64,000 nucleotides of DNA. It comes from Brachyspira hampsonii 30446 (GTDB taxonomy: Bacteria; Spirochaetota; Brachyspiria; Brachyspirales; Brachyspiraceae). Positions 3,706 to 43,638 of this stretch are shown here, one piece after another (the first letter of the stretch is position 1; each line of letters begins with the position of its first letter). The translations under genes were made by a program, and so were the position numbers. The notes under the pieces were generated by a model that was not told the origin of the DNA, made no database searches, and saw only the letters and a program-made list of their open reading frames with translations. Location of the stretch: positions 1,148,299 through 1,212,298 of the forward strand of contig NZ_JH994111.1 of assembly GCF_000316195.1 (NCBI RefSeq). The letters run 5' to 3'.

Positions 3706-4518
3706 ATGAAGATGAATAAAAAAGATAAAATACCAAATATTACTAATGAGAATGAGCAGGAATATTGGTTGGAGTTTAAAAAGACTCTTTCCCCTCATAT
3801 AAGAGAGGCTCTAATTATTAAATATTCTCCTTTAGTAAAATATGTTGCAAATAAGATCTCTTTTAATATGGGATCTCATAAGCATATTGAATTTCAGGAT
3901 TTAGTGGGCTTTGGATCTTTTGGGCTTATGGATGCTATTGATAAGTATAATCCAAACAGAGATATTAAGTTCAAAACCTATGCAGTTACTAGAATTAGAG
4001 GTGCAATATATGATGAACTTAGAAAATTAGATTATCTTCCTAGATCTATTCGTAAAGATGTTAAAGAAATAGAAAAGGCAAGGGAAATATTAGAAGCTAG
4101 ATTAAGCAGAAATATTAAGCCTCAGGAAATAGCAGATATGCTTGGAATACCAATAAGCAAATATAATGAAACTATGAAAAGGTATATAGAGGCTTCTCCT
4201 ACTTCTTTAAGCGATGTTTGGTATGTAGGTGATGATTCCAATGAAATATCAGTAATAGATACATTGAAATCTAATGACAAAACTAATCCGGAATATTTAG
4301 CAGAAAGAGAAGATGTTAAAAATAAAATAATAGCAGCATTAAAAAAACTTCCGGAAAAAGAACAGCAAGTTCTAATACTATATTATTATGATGATCTTAC
4401 TTTAAAAGAGATAGGCAAAGTATTGGATGTTTCAGAAAGCAGAATATCACAGATTCATACAAAAGCTATACAGCAGTTAAAATATAGTCTTTCTGAGATA
4501 AAAAAACAATTATTATAA
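3706..4518 (+). CDS. fliA: Flagellar sigma factor sigma-28 (FliA/WhiG)
   Basis: RNA polymerase sigma factor for late flagellar and motility genes. Region 2 includes QDLVGFGSFGLMDAIDKYNP and FKTYAVTRIRGAIYDELRK. Region 3 is at KDVKEIEKAREILEARL. Region 4 has LPEKEQQVLILYYYDDLTLKEIG and a SESRISQIHTKA recognition helix. I chose ATG 3706 (270 residues). A GTG nine bases upstream is also in frame, but the AGAGTG site and the parallel start of the miniature copy favour 3706. It sits in the flhF-flhG cluster as in other spirochaetes. Confidence 0.92.
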   Translation: MKMNKKDKIPNITNENEQEYWLEFKKTLSPHIREALIIKYSPLVKYVANKISFNMGSHKHIEFQDLVGFGSFGLMDAIDKYNPNRDIKFKTYAVTRIRGAIYDELRKLDYLPRSIRKDVKEIEKAREILEARLSRNIKPQEIADMLGIPISKYNETMKRYIEASPTSLSDVWYVGDDSNEISVIDTLKSNDKTNPEYLAEREDVKNKIIAALKKLPEKEQQVLILYYYDDLTLKEIGKVLDVSESRISQIHTKAIQQLKYSLSEIKKQLL

Positions 4519-11403: not shown

Positions 11404-12579
11404 ATGAAAGTAAAAGAAAAATCAATAATAGAATTTGAAAATATACATAAGATAGAACCTTTATTTATTAGGTATTTAACAATAATAAGTGCTTTAGCTT
11501 TTATAGTTTTATTTATATTTTTCTTTGGTACTCACAGACTTAATGATGAATACAATATGGTAAATGTTTGGAGTAAGAAAAGCGATTCATCAGATTTACC
11601 ATCACATGATGAAAATTTTTATATAGACGGTATATTCAAACATAATTTTTTTACAAAGCCTGAAGGTATAATTCATTATTTTGATTTTAATGGAGATACA
11701 ATATACAGCACTAATTTATCAAGAGGAGAACTAGCAACTTTAAATAATCAGAATTTTATCATATATAAAAGATATGGAAATTATATAGACGCATACAATA
11801 ATATGGGCGGAATTATATGGCGTACCAATACTTCAATTTATCCTGAAATAGCTCCTTATGCTGAAAGGATAATATATCATTCAAGCGACAATTCAAAGAT
11901 ACAAATGTTTGATTTTAATAATAATCCGCTTAGCAGACATATACAATATGGCGAGATAATAACTGATGGTGCTTTTGCTTTGTATACAGGAGATTATATA
12001 GCAGGTTTTTCAAGCGGAGATATAGCATATATAAATAGAAACGGAGAATTATCTTTTGCAATATCTAGTATTCTTAGTGAAATAAATATAGTAAAGTCTG
12101 TAGCAATAAGCGAATATGGAAGTTTTGCTTTAGCGGTAAGCGGAATAAGACCTGAATATATAACTCTTTATGATGCTTTGGGTAATACTATATGGTATTT
12201 AGATACCGGACTTAACAGAAGAAGACATGTATCTAGTTATATAAGTGAAAAATCGATGACTGCTTTTATGCTTGCTGATAGGGATATTGTATTGTATTCT
12301 TTAAATAAAGGTAATGAAATAAAAAGAATTAATTTAGAAAAATATAATATGCAGAATGCAATTAATATGAAATTAAATGCTGAAACTAATTCTACTATTA
12401 TGAGTATATCTAAAGAAGCAAAAAGTGTAGTTTTAATATATGATAATCATACTAAAGAGATTGTATTTGAAAAATATTTAGACGGCTGGGTATACAATCT
12501 CGATATATCAAATTTAGAAAATGAATATATGATTGTAACAGACAGAATGATTTATACATACAAGAGGGTTAAGCTATGA
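11404..12579 (+). CDS. Membrane-anchored beta-propeller-like protein
   Basis: A 391-residue protein with one membrane segment near residues 22-43 after a charged N-terminus, leaving a large extracytoplasmic domain. That domain has repeated beta-strand/turn units of the propeller style (FDFNGDTIYSTNLS, AYNNMGGIIWRTNTS, YDALGNTIWYLDTG), like WD40/PQQ-type propellers, but no catalytic motif. GGAG precedes ATG 11404. The stop overlaps the start of the next M23 peptidase (ATGA), so the two are probably translationally coupled. It may be a scaffold or sensor for the flanking peptidases; this is inferred from neighbourhood only. Confidence 0.75.
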   Translation: MKVKEKSIIEFENIHKIEPLFIRYLTIISALAFIVLFIFFFGTHRLNDEYNMVNVWSKKSDSSDLPSHDENFYIDGIFKHNFFTKPEGIIHYFDFNGDTIYSTNLSRGELATLNNQNFIIYKRYGNYIDAYNNMGGIIWRTNTSIYPEIAPYAERIIYHSSDNSKIQMFDFNNNPLSRHIQYGEIITDGAFALYTGDYIAGFSSGDIAYINRNGELSFAISSILSEINIVKSVAISEYGSFALAVSGIRPEYITLYDALGNTIWYLDTGLNRRRHVSSYISEKSMTAFMLADRDIVLYSLNKGNEIKRINLEKYNMQNAINMKLNAETNSTIMSISKEAKSVVLIYDNHTKEIVFEKYLDGWVYNLDISNLENEYMIVTDRMIYTYKRVKL

Positions 12580-30213: not shown

Positions 30214-30357
30214 GTGAACTCCAATAAAATTACTCATATCACTATATAATGTTAATAATTTTTTTGTTATAGTCAATAAAAAAAATATTTTGAAAAAAAA
30301 TCTTTACTTTTTATTATATTTTGTTATGTTTTAGTTACTTATTTGTGAAAAATATAT

Positions 30358-30595
30358 TAGACTTGTTTCAAAACTACTTGACAAAATTATATATAAAATT
30401 TTTATAATTTATCAATTGAAGAATAATGTTTTATATGTTGTATAAATTATTATTTTAGTATATAAATATGCAGTCCTTTTGCTTCTTTGGGCCACCAAAA
30501 GAAGTGGGGTTTGGGGCAAAGCCCCAACTATAATTAAAAAAATATTAAATTAAAAAACTATAAGTATTAAGAAATTGAGTTTTGAAACAAGTCTA
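30358..30595. mobile_element. MITE-like element, copy A (238 bp, perfect 18-bp TIRs)
   Basis: Bounded by TAGACTTGTTTCAAAACT (30358-30375) and its exact reverse complement (30578-30595). The ends begin and finish with TA, as expected for insertion at a TA dinucleotide. It encodes no protein. The centre has a GC-rich hairpin TTGGGGC-AAA-GCCCCAA (about 30515-30531) beside AAAAGAAGTGGGGT. The same element lies inverted at 42079. Its right end is 30 bp before the sialidase start. Confidence 0.85.
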
Positions 30596-30625
30596 TTATC
30601 TATTATTGGAAAGGTATGTAAAAAA

Positions 30626-32020
30626 ATGAAAATCAATCTTTTTATTTTGTTATTTTGTATACTGATTGCATTTTTAATGTTCGGTATAATTTCATGTTCT
30701 AAAAGGTTAAATCCTTTTTATCCGGATGATAAAGTCATCAGTGCAAATACAGAGGAAGAGGTAGCAATAACTCCTATAGAATATCCTGATATTGGAGAAG
30801 ATGAACCTGAATGGTTTTTAGAGCCTGAAGAACAAATTGAACCTTTCATGGAGCAGACTATAATTTTTACAAGTGAGGTAAATAATAATAGTGAAAATAG
30901 TCCTAAACATATATATAGAATACCTGGAATAACAGTTTCAGAAAAAAATACAATAATAGCAGTTGCGGATTATAGAAAAGACAGTTATTCTGATGTTGGT
31001 GTTATTAATTCAAAGCCTATAGATATTGTTGTAAGAAGAAGTACAGACGGCGGTAAAAGCTGGGGATCTGAGATAATTATTCCTCCAATTGCTAATAATA
31101 ATTTAGAATCTCATGGGGATTCACTATTTTTTTCATGTGCTAATGGTGATTTAGTAGTTTTATGTGTTGCAGGCGGAGGATATGCTCAAAATATAGGCGG
31201 TAAATCTAAAATTATGATATCAAGGAGTACAGATGATGGAATTACTTGGAGTGATTGGAAACTTGCTGAAGGAAATGTTAATGGTTTTGGACAGGGTCTA
31301 TTGTCTGGTTATGACAGAGGATTTGCAGCTTCGGGTACTGGAGCAAGACTTGCTAATGGCACTTTGATGGGGGCTATGCTTATAAGAAAAGGAGTGAATA
31401 ATAATACAAGAGCAGCTGCTGTTATAGTTTCTACTGATAATGGCAATACTTGGACGGTTAGAAGTATAGTTAAAAGAAAATCAGGTGCACAAGATGAACC
31501 TAAAGTTATTACTCAATTAAATGACAGAAGAATTTTATTATCTGTACGCTCAGGACAAAGAGGCAATAGAAGGGTATGGTTTAGATCTAAAGCTGATTTG
31601 GGAGCTGATTGGGAAGAATTTACACCTACTGGAAATTTTTATGATGCTAATTGTAATGCAGAAGGTATTTTATTTACTTCTACATTAGAGGGATATGATA
31701 AGAATAGGCTTATACATTTAGCATTGGATTCTAATACAGATAGAAGAAACCTAACTGCTTTTATAAGTTATGATGAAGGTGCTTCTTGGGAAAAACAAAG
31801 AGTTTTAAATTCTGGAAGAGCTGGATATGCTGCATTGGCAAGATTAAATGACGGTACAATAGTTACTCTTAGTGAGGAACAGGGTGGACAATCAAACTTG
31901 CCTCAAAATTCAGGTAATGATCTTTATAATATTGTATTTAGAAGATTTAATCTAAGATGGCTTACTAATCAAAAAGATTTTTATACTCCGCCTGATAAAA
32001 CTGCTATAAGAATATTTTAA
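30626..32020 (+). CDS. Exo-alpha-sialidase lipoprotein (GH33)
   Basis: Removes terminal sialic acid from host glycans at the cell surface. A lipobox ends FGIISC. The mature protein has an acidic spacer, then YRIPGI (catalytic Arg of the RIP motif), VADYRKDSYSDVG with the acid Asp, and four Asp-boxes: RRSTDGGKSWG, SRSTDDGITWS, VSTDNGNTWT and ISYDEGASWE. ATG 30626 is the first Met before the signal peptide. The frame is open into the inverted repeat upstream, but there GTG/TTG starts would add unconserved residues. A mucin-foraging role fits Brachyspira. Confidence 0.92.
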   Translation: MKINLFILLFCILIAFLMFGIISCSKRLNPFYPDDKVISANTEEEVAITPIEYPDIGEDEPEWFLEPEEQIEPFMEQTIIFTSEVNNNSENSPKHIYRIPGITVSEKNTIIAVADYRKDSYSDVGVINSKPIDIVVRRSTDGGKSWGSEIIIPPIANNNLESHGDSLFFSCANGDLVVLCVAGGGYAQNIGGKSKIMISRSTDDGITWSDWKLAEGNVNGFGQGLLSGYDRGFAASGTGARLANGTLMGAMLIRKGVNNNTRAAAVIVSTDNGNTWTVRSIVKRKSGAQDEPKVITQLNDRRILLSVRSGQRGNRRVWFRSKADLGADWEEFTPTGNFYDANCNAEGILFTSTLEGYDKNRLIHLALDSNTDRRNLTAFISYDEGASWEKQRVLNSGRAGYAALARLNDGTIVTLSEEQGGQSNLPQNSGNDLYNIVFRRFNLRWLTNQKDFYTPPDKTAIRIF

Positions 32021-32080: not shown

Positions 32081-32171
32081 TATAGAATTTTATTGAAATA
32101 ATTATAAATATAATGTACTATTATGTTAATTGAATTATGTTAATTATGTGATAAAAGCAAAGGATTTTTAT

Positions 32172-33194
32172 ATGGCTTCAGTAATTACTTTTGGGGAAAT
32201 AATGTTAAGGCTTTCTCCTCCTTCAAATTTAAGGTTTGTACAGGCTAATTCTTATGATGTAAGATTCGGAGGAGGCGAGGCTAATGTTGCTTTTGCTTTG
32301 TCTAATTTTGGAGTTGATGCTTCATTTGTTACTAAACTTCCTAATAATGATATAGGTCAAGCCTGTATTAATGAGTTAAGAAGATATGGTGTTGATGTAT
32401 CGAATATAGTTTTTGGCGGAGAAAGAATAGGGATATACTTTCTTGAAAAAGGAGCAAGTCAAAGAGGTTCTAAAGTTATATATGATAGGGCTAATTCCTC
32501 AATATCTAAGTGTACTAAAGAAGATTTTGATTGGGATAAAATTTTTGATGAAGCTAAGTGGTTTCACCTTACGGGAATAACTCCGGCACTTGGTAAAAAT
32601 GTTTCTGAAGTCTGTATTGAGGCTTGCAAAAAAGCTAAAGAAAAAAATATTACAATTAGTTTAGATTTGAATTACAGAAAAAAATTATGGACATCAAAAG
32701 AAGCTAATGAAACTATGAGCAGATTAATGCCTTATGTTGATATATGTATTGCCAATGAAGAAGATGCTGAAAAAGTATTTGGTATTAAAGCAAAGGACAG
32801 CAATATTATAGAGGGTAAATTATCTCATGAAGGATATAAAGATGTAGCTAAAGAAATAGTAAATAGATTTAAAGTAAAAAAAGTTGGAATTGCTTTAAGA
32901 GGCTCAATTTCTGCAAGTGAAAATCTATGGTCTTGTATGCTTTATAATGGAGAAGAGTATTTCTTTTCAAAAGAGTATTTAATAAAAATAGTGGATAGGG
33001 TAGGGGGCGGAGATAGTTTTGCTGCCGGACTTATATATTCACTTTTAAATGGAAAAGATGACAGAGAAGCATTAGAGTTTGCTGCGGCTGCAAGCTGTTT
33101 GAAACATTCTATTGATGGTGATTTTAATATTGTAACTGTTGATGAGGTTATGACTGTTTATAACGGAGATGCTTCAGGACGAATACAGAGATAG
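32172..33194 (+). CDS. PfkB-family sugar kinase, 2-keto-3-deoxygluconate kinase-like
   Basis: Ribokinase-type kinase of 340 residues: an N-terminal glycine-rich RFGGGEANVAFALSNFG, the lid strands, and a C-terminal DRVGGGDSFAAGLIYSLL with the catalytic Asp. The opening ITFGEIMLRLSPP is typical of KdgK enzymes of the Entner-Doudoroff and uronate pathways, but the exact sugar cannot be told from sequence. ATG 32172 follows AAAGG; an in-frame start further up has no site. It is on the same strand as the sialidase and the ROK kinase. Confidence 0.85.
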   Translation: MASVITFGEIMLRLSPPSNLRFVQANSYDVRFGGGEANVAFALSNFGVDASFVTKLPNNDIGQACINELRRYGVDVSNIVFGGERIGIYFLEKGASQRGSKVIYDRANSSISKCTKEDFDWDKIFDEAKWFHLTGITPALGKNVSEVCIEACKKAKEKNITISLDLNYRKKLWTSKEANETMSRLMPYVDICIANEEDAEKVFGIKAKDSNIIEGKLSHEGYKDVAKEIVNRFKVKKVGIALRGSISASENLWSCMLYNGEEYFFSKEYLIKIVDRVGGGDSFAAGLIYSLLNGKDDREALEFAAAASCLKHSIDGDFNIVTVDEVMTVYNGDASGRIQR

Positions 33195-33214
33195 TTAGAA
33201 TTTATTTTTTATCC

Positions 33215-33243
33215 TTGACAATTTATATTCTTAATACTACAAT
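33215..33243 (+). promoter_or_regulatory. Promoter of the ROK kinase gene
   Basis: TTGACA, a 17-base spacer and TACAAT, ending 42 bases before the start at 33286. Confidence 0.75.
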
Positions 33244-33285
33244 TATTATATATATGAAAAATAAATAAACTAGGAGTTTTAAATT

Positions 33286-34242
33286 ATGAAAGAAGCAGTT
33301 ATAGCTATAGATATTGGCGGAACATCTATGAAAGGAGCTGTTATAGAGGAAAACGGCAATATTTTATATAAAGATAATTTTGATGTAAATCCTAGTCATA
33401 CAACAGAGGAACATAAAAATGTTATTACAGAATTTGTTGAAAAATTAAAAAGCAATATGCCTAATGATTATAAAGCAGTGGGTTTAGGAATAGACTGTCC
33501 TGGTGTTATGAATAGAGAAACACTTCATATGGGAGGAGCTGAAAATATACCGGGACTTAAAGGATTAAAATTTTCAGATATTGGAGATAAATTTAATTTG
33601 CCTACAAGAACAGCTAACGATGCTAGTATGGCTGCTTTGGGAGAGGCAAAATATGGAAGCGGTAAAGAAAAGGCTTATCAGTCTGTAATGTTTATTACTC
33701 TTGGAACAGGAGTTGGAGGAGGATTTGTACTTAACGGGCAATTATTTACAGGTTCTTTGGGCGGAGCTGGTGAGATCGGTCATGTATTTGTAGTTCCTGA
33801 CGGTGATAAATGTAATTGCGGTTCAAGCGGCTGTATAGAAAGATATGCATCTGCTACAGGATTTATTGCTATGGCTAAGCAGAAAATTCATAAAGGTGTT
33901 ATTCCTACAACTTTAACTTATGAAGAATTAGATAAAGGTAAGGCTAAAGCTTTATTTGATGCTGCAAAAAAAGGCGATGAACTTGCTAAAGAAACTATTG
34001 ATGAATGTTCTTATTATTTGGGCATGTCTATAGCACAGGCTTTGAATATGCTTGATTTGGATTTGGTTCTTATAGGCGGCGGACTTTGTAAAGATTTTGA
34101 TATGATGATAGAGCATATTAATAAAGGTGTTAGAAATTATGGGCTTAGAATGATGGTTAACAATGTTGAAATAAAACCTGCTTCTTTAGGAAATGATGCC
34201 GGAGTTTTGGGATGTGCAGCTTTATTTTTTAGAAATAATTGA
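33286..34242 (+). CDS. ROK-family sugar kinase, glucokinase-like
   Basis: A 318-residue sugar kinase. ATP-binding IDIGGTSMKGAVIEENG is at the N-terminus; TRTANDASMAALGEAKYGSG, ITLGTGVGGGFVLNGQLF, and the zinc site of ROK proteins (CNCGSSGCIERYAS) follow. The overall layout fits Glk of the ROK type. N-acetylmannosamine kinase (NanK) belongs to the same family, so with a sialidase nearby this alternative is real. It has its own promoter. Confidence 0.9.
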   Translation: MKEAVIAIDIGGTSMKGAVIEENGNILYKDNFDVNPSHTTEEHKNVITEFVEKLKSNMPNDYKAVGLGIDCPGVMNRETLHMGGAENIPGLKGLKFSDIGDKFNLPTRTANDASMAALGEAKYGSGKEKAYQSVMFITLGTGVGGGFVLNGQLFTGSLGGAGEIGHVFVVPDGDKCNCGSSGCIERYASATGFIAMAKQKIHKGVIPTTLTYEELDKGKAKALFDAAKKGDELAKETIDECSYYLGMSIAQALNMLDLDLVLIGGGLCKDFDMMIEHINKGVRNYGLRMMVNNVEIKPASLGNDAGVLGCAALFFRNN

Positions 34243-41582: not shown

Positions 41583-41600
41583 AATTTTGAAATAAGTATA
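41583..41600. repeat. Solo right end of the MITE-like element
   Basis: AATTTTGAAATAAGTATA matches the 18-bp terminal repeat AGTTTTGAAACAAGTCTA at 15 positions. No partner end is seen upstream. Confidence 0.45.
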
Positions 41601-41628
41601 TTAATATAGTATTATTTCAAGATAAGAA

Positions 41629-41978
41629 TAGGCATGTTTCAAAACTATTTTAATATTATTTATGATAATTATAGTATTGAAAATTTATAATGCGGCTTTG
41701 CTTATAACAATTCATCCGAGTCCAAGTTGTTTTATACGGTGAGCATGCCTTACTTTGCGTTATTATGCTAGGCAAAGGACTGAGGATTTATATACAATAA
41801 TTAATATTATCGATTTAATATAAAATAATAAATTTTAAGAAAGTCTAATATTCAAAACCAAATTATAGCTACTGCAATTTTGTAAATTCATACAGTTAGT
41901 AACGGTTAATATTAGAAATATAGAATATAATTTTATTTACAGTAATTTTATCTAAATATGCGTTTTGAGACAAGTATA
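41629..41978. mobile_element. MITE-like element, copy C (degenerate)
   Basis: Left end TAGGCATGTTTCAAAACT (two mismatches to the intact repeat) and right end CGTTTTGAGACAAGTATA (three mismatches). The interior is a different sequence with a GC-richer stretch (41693-41780) and no open frame. Confidence 0.6.
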
Positions 41979-42078
41979 ATATATTATTGGTAAAATAGAA
42001 AATATAAGCTATAAAATAAAGCTGCAAATAATATATAGTAATATGGTAATTATTAAGTCTTTATAATGATTTATATAA

Positions 42079-42394
42079 TAGACTTGTTTCAAAACTCAAA
42101 TTTTTAATATTTATAGTTTTTTAATTTAATATTTTTTTGATTATAGTTGGGGCTTTGCTGCGAAGCACACAGTCGTGCCAAACCCCACTTCTTTTGTGAC
42201 GCCTGTCCGCCTTCGGTGTGGCACATACGAAGTACGCCTTCGGCGAGAAGCATATGAAGTACGCCTGCGGCGAAAGACTGCATATTTATATACTAAAACA
42301 ATAATTTATAAAACATATCAAACATTATTTTATAAATTATAAAATTACGAAATTTTCATATGTAATCTTGTCAAGTAGTTTTGAAACAAGTCTA
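42079..42394. mobile_element. MITE-like element, copy B (316 bp, perfect 18-bp TIRs)
   Basis: TAGACTTGTTTCAAAACT at 42079-42096 and its exact complement at 42377-42394. Read in reverse it aligns end to end with copy A, including AAAAGAAGTGGGGTTTGG and CAAAGCCCCAACTATA. It carries about 78 extra bases in the centre, with a 27-bp tandem repeat (42224-42250, 42251-42277; CATA[C/T]GAAGTACGCCT). No coding capacity. Confidence 0.85.
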
Positions 42395-42911
42395 ATAAAA
42401 ATAAGCTGTTATAATTATTAAATAATTAATAAAAGTCTTGTGTATGTGTGATAATTTAGTCATTACTATAAACAATGACTCTAAGTAAGAAGAAAGGAAA
42501 AAATAAATCTATGCTAAATGAATAGTTATTAATAATAAATAAAGGCAGTAGTAGAATTGAGAAATATTTAAAGTATAGCTGATGATTATTATATTTATTA
42601 TTATATGGTATAAAGTTTTGGATATTCAATATCAATGATAAAAGCTGTAAGTTGTAAAAAGAATAAATTTATATTCCGATAATGTATATTATGTTAACTT
42701 AAGCATGTTATTTTTTATAGACTTTATTATGATATTGATAATAAAGCTATCATTATGGCAATAGATATAGATTATGTTTTTATAAATAAAAAAATTAAAA
42801 AGTCAATACATAATATTTATACAAGCAATTTTCATTAACAATTGAACTTTTTTATATATTATAGTATAATCTATCATTAATAAAGAAAAATAAAATTACG
42901 GATATGCACTA
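42395..42911. other. AT-rich gap before the lipoprotein gene
   Basis: No open frame of note and no clear RNA gene. Short coding-like traces are not continuous; it may be old pseudogene material. Confidence 0.4.
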
Positions 42912-43439
42912 ATGAAAAAAATAACACTTTTTTTAATATTAAGTTTAATAATTATATCATGCAAAAATGACGGCGGATCTATATACGCTATGGAAAAAAG
43001 ATATAATAATTTCCTCAATATACTTCCAACTGATATAAGGAATGATTATACTTTAGAATCTGATAAATACGGTAATATGTATAAAGAATGGATTAATGAG
43101 TTCAATACTTGGACTGAAAATATACTAAATACAGAATCTCAAAGAGAACAAGAAATATCAGCAAGGATCACACCAGACAAGATAGAATATGCTCTAGAAA
43201 CTTTAACAAGTAAAGACTATGAAAGAAATCTTCCCGTAGAACTTATGTCTAAGGTAAAGGCACATACAGATGAATTATCCTTAAAAATAGAAGAATTAGA
43301 AAAAGATGAGGCTTTCTCTAATAATATGATAAAACTAAAAAAAGATGAAGCTGTAGAAAACTTTACTACAAAAGATACTATATTTTACTATGTTTGGAAT
43401 TATTTAATAACAATAGACAGACCAAGACGTTTTCAGTGA
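42912..43439 (+). CDS. Small predicted lipoprotein
   Basis: A 175-residue protein. The signal ends in lipobox LSLIIISC (Cys17). The mature part is charged and helical, with an E/K-rich stretch near residues 110-145 (KVKAHTDELSLKIEELEKDE), and ends with aromatic and basic residues. No family recognised. It is the only intact gene in a decayed, repeat-rich zone between 40.9 and 43.8 kb. Confidence 0.7.
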   Translation: MKKITLFLILSLIIISCKNDGGSIYAMEKRYNNFLNILPTDIRNDYTLESDKYGNMYKEWINEFNTWTENILNTESQREQEISARITPDKIEYALETLTSKDYERNLPVELMSKVKAHTDELSLKIEELEKDEAFSNNMIKLKKDEAVENFTTKDTIFYYVWNYLITIDRPRRFQ

Positions 43440-43569
43440 TATTGATTTTTATTATTCAAACGTAATATTTTCCTCATTATTATTTTATAGTAATTTTAGT
43501 ATAATTATATTATGTCATTATAGATAGTATAAATATTTATAGTGTGTGTTGTTAAAAATGGAATAGATT

Positions 43570-43638
43570 TTAAAACATTATTTTTATAATTGATAAATTA
43601 TGAAAATTTCGTGTTAAAGTACTTTTGAAACAAGACTA
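43570..43638. repeat. Solo right end of the MITE-like element (copy E)
   Basis: ACTTTTGAAACAAGACTA (43621-43638) has two mismatches to the intact 18-bp end. The 50 bases before it match the end of copy A (AAAACATTA, then TAATTGATAAATTAT), so half an element is present without its left end. The rest of the 43440-43827 gap holds no feature I can support. Confidence 0.65.

Follow-up and report, generated by a model that had tools for sequence, protein, structure and literature searches.

A sialidase-upstream inverted-repeat element of Brachyspira hampsonii is one copy of a high-copy MITE family, probably moved by an IS5-type transposase

A short inverted-repeat element lies immediately ahead of a sialidase-like gene in Brachyspira hampsonii 30446, and the locus raises the question of what kind of element this is, what moved it and whether it affects expression of the gene. 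The window, by which we mean the whole 64,000 nucleotide stretch of DNA that was analyzed, carries the element at 30358-30595 on the forward strand (238 bp), and the sialidase ATG at 30626 is 30 nt beyond its end. The 18-bp arms at 30358-30375 (forward strand) and 30578-30595 (reverse strand) are perfect reverse complements, and when the adjoining bases are counted the inverted repeat reaches 27 nt, at 89%. The left repeat is followed by the subterminal sequence ACTTGACAAA, which is common to the left end of the partner IS described below. A GC-rich palindromic core at 30476-30527 (forward strand; 54% GC vs 16% in the left arm) forms two stem-loops, and the central GC hairpin is TTTGGGGCAAAGCCCCA. 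The predicted fold of the element was much stronger than that of shuffled sequences (z -6.6), no open reading frame of 100 or more amino acids was found inside 30358-30595 and no Rfam family matched the element. Coordinates, open reading frames and fold thus agreed with the description given by the sequence-only reading, that of a non-coding element with perfect 18-bp ends and a central GC hairpin 30 bp before the sialidase.

When the genome was searched for the 18-bp ends, as that reading had proposed, 255 matches (up to two mismatches) were obtained across its 3.04 Mb, divided 131 to 124 between the two strands, while a reversed control sequence gave 1. Within the window there were 8 matches with up to three mismatches compared with 0.15 expected in shuffled sequence. 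The whole element gave 59 matches in its own genome, from which 50 distinct elements of 193-358 bp were extracted, with the ends paired inward in every one, and we estimate that roughly a hundred or more copies are present. A sequence containing TTGACA was conserved just past one terminal repeat in 45 of the 50 copies, and the opposite end was of two or three types. The middle of most copies was a nest of GC-rich palindromes (GC up to about 63%, against 13%–25% in the arms), and it is variation in the length of this GC-rich middle that accounts for the range of element sizes. Two further copies are found in the window, a good one at 42079-42394 (316 bp) and a degenerate one at 41629-41978 (350 bp); both are part of a cluster of copies and degenerate ends spanning 41583-43638. 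A search of 41 genomes with up to one mismatch found the end confined to Brachyspira, where 23 genomes contained a match. The host genome of the window had 202 such ends, a second Brachyspira genome (G017) had 90, five others had 30 to 58 and the rest had few. No similar DNA was found in plasmid and phage collections. The sialidase-upstream element belongs to a non-autonomous MITE family that is present at high copy number in Brachyspira and has the ends AGACTTGTTTCAAAACT. Its members are short, lack coding capacity, have inverted ends, are present in many copies and duplicate their target, and the earlier interpretation as a MITE held up on copy number, on the inward pairing of the ends, on target duplications and on empty sites in relatives.

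The target duplication was apparent from the flanks of the 50 elements, in which position -2 was A in 50/50 and position +2 was T in 47/50, and the base preceding TA was the same as the base following TA in 48 of 50 (25.6 expected). This pattern fits a unit AGACTT...AAGTCT flanked by a duplicated 3-bp AWT. At the sialidase the two copies of the duplication are ATT at 30356-30358, directly before AGACTT, and ATT at 30595-30597, directly after AAGTCT (both forward strand), and a single ATT is present in the empty site (L086/L087). On this evidence the outer T and A of the element probably belong to the duplicated target and the mobile unit is probably 30359-30594 (AGACTTG...CAAGTCT). A 5-bp TAWTA duplication was considered and rejected, as the outer positions are mere preferences (T 42/50, A 32/50) and A/W/T are nearly fixed; it is also disfavoured by one IS copy with TAT after its end, and 3 bp fits better.

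Precise empty sites were found in Brachyspira relatives at seven loci, the sialidase and six others, and their length corresponded to the 3-bp duplication in every clean case; tests at three further loci (L014, L033 and L041) were unclean and were excluded from the count. At the sialidase, two relatives (G019, whose protein is 93% identical, and G023) have AAAATAAATTATCTATTG where the window has AAAATATATT, the element and ATTATCTATTA. The comparison of loci with and without the element, also proposed by the sequence-only reading, was made between Brachyspira genomes, and the element was present at 0 of 9 orthologous sialidase loci. By this comparison the element is newly inserted at the sialidase, after its own lineage parted from the closest sampled relatives.

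Among the transposases of the genus, those of the IS5 family (DDE_Tnp_4/DDE_Tnp_1) were the only ones found flanked by these ends. DDE_Tnp_4, which is IS5-type, had three matches across Brachyspira; each was bounded by MITE ends, and the best of them also hit DDE_Tnp_1. A full-length but decayed IS (L064, 756 bp) begins TAGACCTGTTTCAAAATTACTTGACAAA. In a B. pilosicoli-like genome (G041) the left end of the IS (AGACTTGTTTCAAAAGTACTTGACAAA / AGACTTGTTTCAAAAGTACTTGACAAATC) was present about 15 times in near-identical form. IS right ends adjoining the transposase C-terminus were similarly numerous there, and the flanks were mostly AAT/ATT. Both the ends and the 3-bp AWT duplication of the MITE are therefore common to an autonomous IS5-family element. 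No complete intact copy of this IS could be read, as the contigs of G041 break at the multi-copy IS and a different IS interrupts the sole internal copy. Part of the transposase query (residues 1-46) comes from another IS that had inserted into the gene, and the many G041 matches to that part were discounted. In G041 the IS5-type transposase gene at L062 (G041:C74) was seen to be interrupted by a multi-copy IS3-like IS, rve-type by eye. Within IS5, members of the ISL2 subgroup typically duplicate 3 bp (ANT), and the length of the duplication observed here fits that subgroup. No intact DDE_Tnp_4/DDE_Tnp_1 transposase or relative was detected in the host genome of the MITE, searches there for a DDE_3 or DDE_Tnp_1 partner gave no usable match, and viral contigs contained no relatives of the transposase. 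We infer that the family was mobilised by an IS5-type transposase whose role in this genome would be a historical one; because no such transposase is detectable there, the family looks orphaned.

We are confident, though short of certain, that the element is an IS5-type MITE which was moved in trans and now lies in the 5' leader of the sialidase behind the native promoter, an explanation that draws on the observed family, its copy number, the duplication, the empty sites and the relationship to the IS. Acting in trans, an IS5-family (DDE_Tnp_4/DDE_Tnp_1) transposase would have recognised the ends of the MITE and placed it at T-AWT-A sites, duplicating 3 bp. The left end of the MITE, including the subterminal ACTTGACAAA, is that of the partner IS, and with the transposase no longer detectable in this genome the family is probably immobile now. 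The element would have entered the leader region once this lineage had diverged from the nearest relatives sampled. Most likely the sialidase is still transcribed from its native promoter, and the transcript would then gain 239 nt, predicted to fold into one closed stem with the ribosome-binding site outside.

The sialidase-like gene itself (30626-32020, forward strand) encodes a lipoprotein-type signal and a BNR_2 domain. Of the mucin-attacking enzyme named by the sequence-only reading, the analysis covered the BNR/sialidase-like domain. In the nearest relatives the sequence ahead of the gene is conserved as far as the insertion point. A candidate native promoter, TTTACT-16 nt-TATGTT at 30303-30330 (forward strand), was picked out by eye from the alignment of orthologous upstream regions; it is recognisable at most orthologous loci and was left intact by the insertion. 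The RBS-like GGAAAGG at 30608-30614 (forward strand), which is conserved in the closest orthologues, lies 3' of the element. Next on that strand come a pfkB-type sugar kinase and a ROK-family kinase (32130-34242), an arrangement that may reflect a sugar-use cluster. The suggestion that the promoter of the sialidase is inside the element or was disrupted by it gained no support here: the element sits downstream of the candidate native promoter and ahead of the ribosome-binding site, and copies of the family are not biased in orientation towards genes.

The likely effect of the insertion, as modelled from the predicted fold, is a longer, folded 5' leader on the sialidase transcript. By analogy with the Correia/NEMIS elements of Neisseria, the 239-nt leader could also be cut by RNase III or could slow expression of the sialidase, a post-transcriptional attenuation that we regard as possible but tentative. 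In the predicted leader the whole element folds into one closed stem (z -5.2) with the ribosome-binding site left outside, and RNase III binds Correia elements and is able to cut them (PMC2649163); however, no terminator-like site was found in the element. Attenuation of this kind is compatible with the main explanation and does not exclude it.

It is unlikely that the element acts as a portable promoter, with TTGACA near its left end, or else its right end, driving the sialidase in the manner of Correia elements or MITEAba12. The TTGACA just within one end of 45 of the 50 copies is here directed at the sialidase, and promoters within MITEs have been documented in Neisseria and Acinetobacter (PMC10969869, PMC6382973), but no good -10 box is present 16-18 nt 3' of this TTGACA, and the motif belongs to the left end of the partner IS, from which it would have been inherited by descent, hence its conservation. 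Within the element, the match closest to consensus (11/12) is directed away from the sialidase, and promoter-like matches in the element were no more numerous than in shuffled sequences. Among the 50 copies, 24 were in co-directional, 13 in convergent and 11 in divergent contexts (with genes taken from simple ORF calls), and of those within 150 bp of a gene start 14 pointed towards the gene and 14 away. These contexts are what undirected intergenic insertion would give. TTGACA was accordingly judged unlikely to act as a promoter, for want of a suitable -10 box and of orientation bias, and, with the candidate native promoter intact, the proposal that sialidase expression is tied to a mobile repeat found no backing. 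A regulatory link to the sialidase is possible; the family lends it no support.

The GC-rich core can be followed beyond this family. A core of the kind found at 30476-30527 recurs in many other copies of this MITE, as well as in a second family whose ends are AGACCTGTTGCAATTTT...AAAATTGCAACAGGTCT, of which there are 36 ends (approximately 18 elements) in the same genome and 0 for the reversed control; members there include L206:285-592, L207, L211 and L217-L236. Identical 3-bp AWT flanks were found in 12 of 12 second-family elements examined, all 12 of which carried the core motifs, and two MITE families with different ends thus have one GC-rich palindromic core in common. The core at 30476-30527 and those of the 50 copies were seen to consist of nested GC-rich palindromes, in a genome of 28% GC, and copies apparently differ by extra modules of ~20-30 nt, also palindromic, in the hairpin loops (for example, a 238-bp vs a 276-bp copy). 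Core modules such as GGCACCTACTCGGT were also seen outside recognisable MITEs on a small contig, C2 (G000:C2:3499-3512, 3796-3809 and 11637-11650; L001, L002 and L213), some apparently within open reading frames. The shared core may go back to common descent, the ends having diverged since, to recombination or to insertion of the core itself. That the core is a cassette in its own right, passed between at least two MITE families and kept because it works as a structured element at the RNA or DNA level, and that its insertion upstream of genes including the sialidase would thereby impose a shared post-transcriptional control, we consider improbable.

An IS630/Tc1-mariner-type MITE with a TA target duplication, as proposed by the sequence-only reading, is very improbable: the TA it relied on is indeed visible at both ends of the inverted repeats but is not the duplication, which is a 3-bp AWT, and a TA duplication would make the empty sites 3 bp longer than was observed at the seven loci; one G041 IS right flank has TAT directly after AAGTCT, which places the outer A outside the element, and the sole IS630-type DDE_3 match among 26 Brachyspira genomes is a single decayed fragment without these ends, which instead bound the DDE_Tnp_4 transposases.

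The analysis corrects the class of the element and points to an IS5-type transposase as its mover. The family is new and its kind, the IS5-type MITE, is already known; in the literature searched we found neither the MITE end sequence in print nor a description of Brachyspira MITEs. A 3-Mb spirochaete genome here holds more than 250 recognisable ends of a family whose transposase is no longer detected in it, and the unusual part is that two MITE families with different ends have one GC-rich core in common. As the insertion varies among close Brachyspira relatives, it could be used to mark lineages and as a natural experiment on how the leader affects the sialidase.

Among known systems, Tc1/mariner-IS630-type MITEs resemble the Brachyspira MITE in the TA visible at both ends and differ from it in that the Brachyspira family has an AWT duplication and an IS5-type partner transposase. 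The Correia repeat enclosed elements (NEMIS) of Neisseria are likewise high-copy intergenic MITEs that are folded when transcribed and often lie beside genes, but their ends and target are unlike those described here, and promoters and RNase III processing are documented for the Correia elements, in contrast to the Brachyspira MITE. MITEAba12 of Acinetobacter, also short and non-coding, has the ends of ISAba12, an IS with a DDE transposase, and is moved in trans; an effect on neighbouring genes has been suggested for it (PMC6382973). It has 9-bp duplications, a length of 111-114 bp and 90 copies over some 30 genomes (PMC6382973), whereas the Brachyspira MITE has a 3-bp AWT duplication, a length of 193-358 bp, 255 ends in one genome and a variable GC core. 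IS5-family ISs with AGAYYTC ends occur on plasmids of Acinetobacter and cyanobacteria, for example in NZ_CP125671.1 (annotated 'IS5 family transposase') and AP025632.1. Their transposases are about 42%–43% identical to the Brachyspira one and, in four relatives (L143-L146), the ends begin with AGA and the duplications are 3-bp AAT/ATT; in contrast to the MITE they are autonomous elements of about 915-950 bp, with an inner inverted repeat unlike that of Brachyspira.
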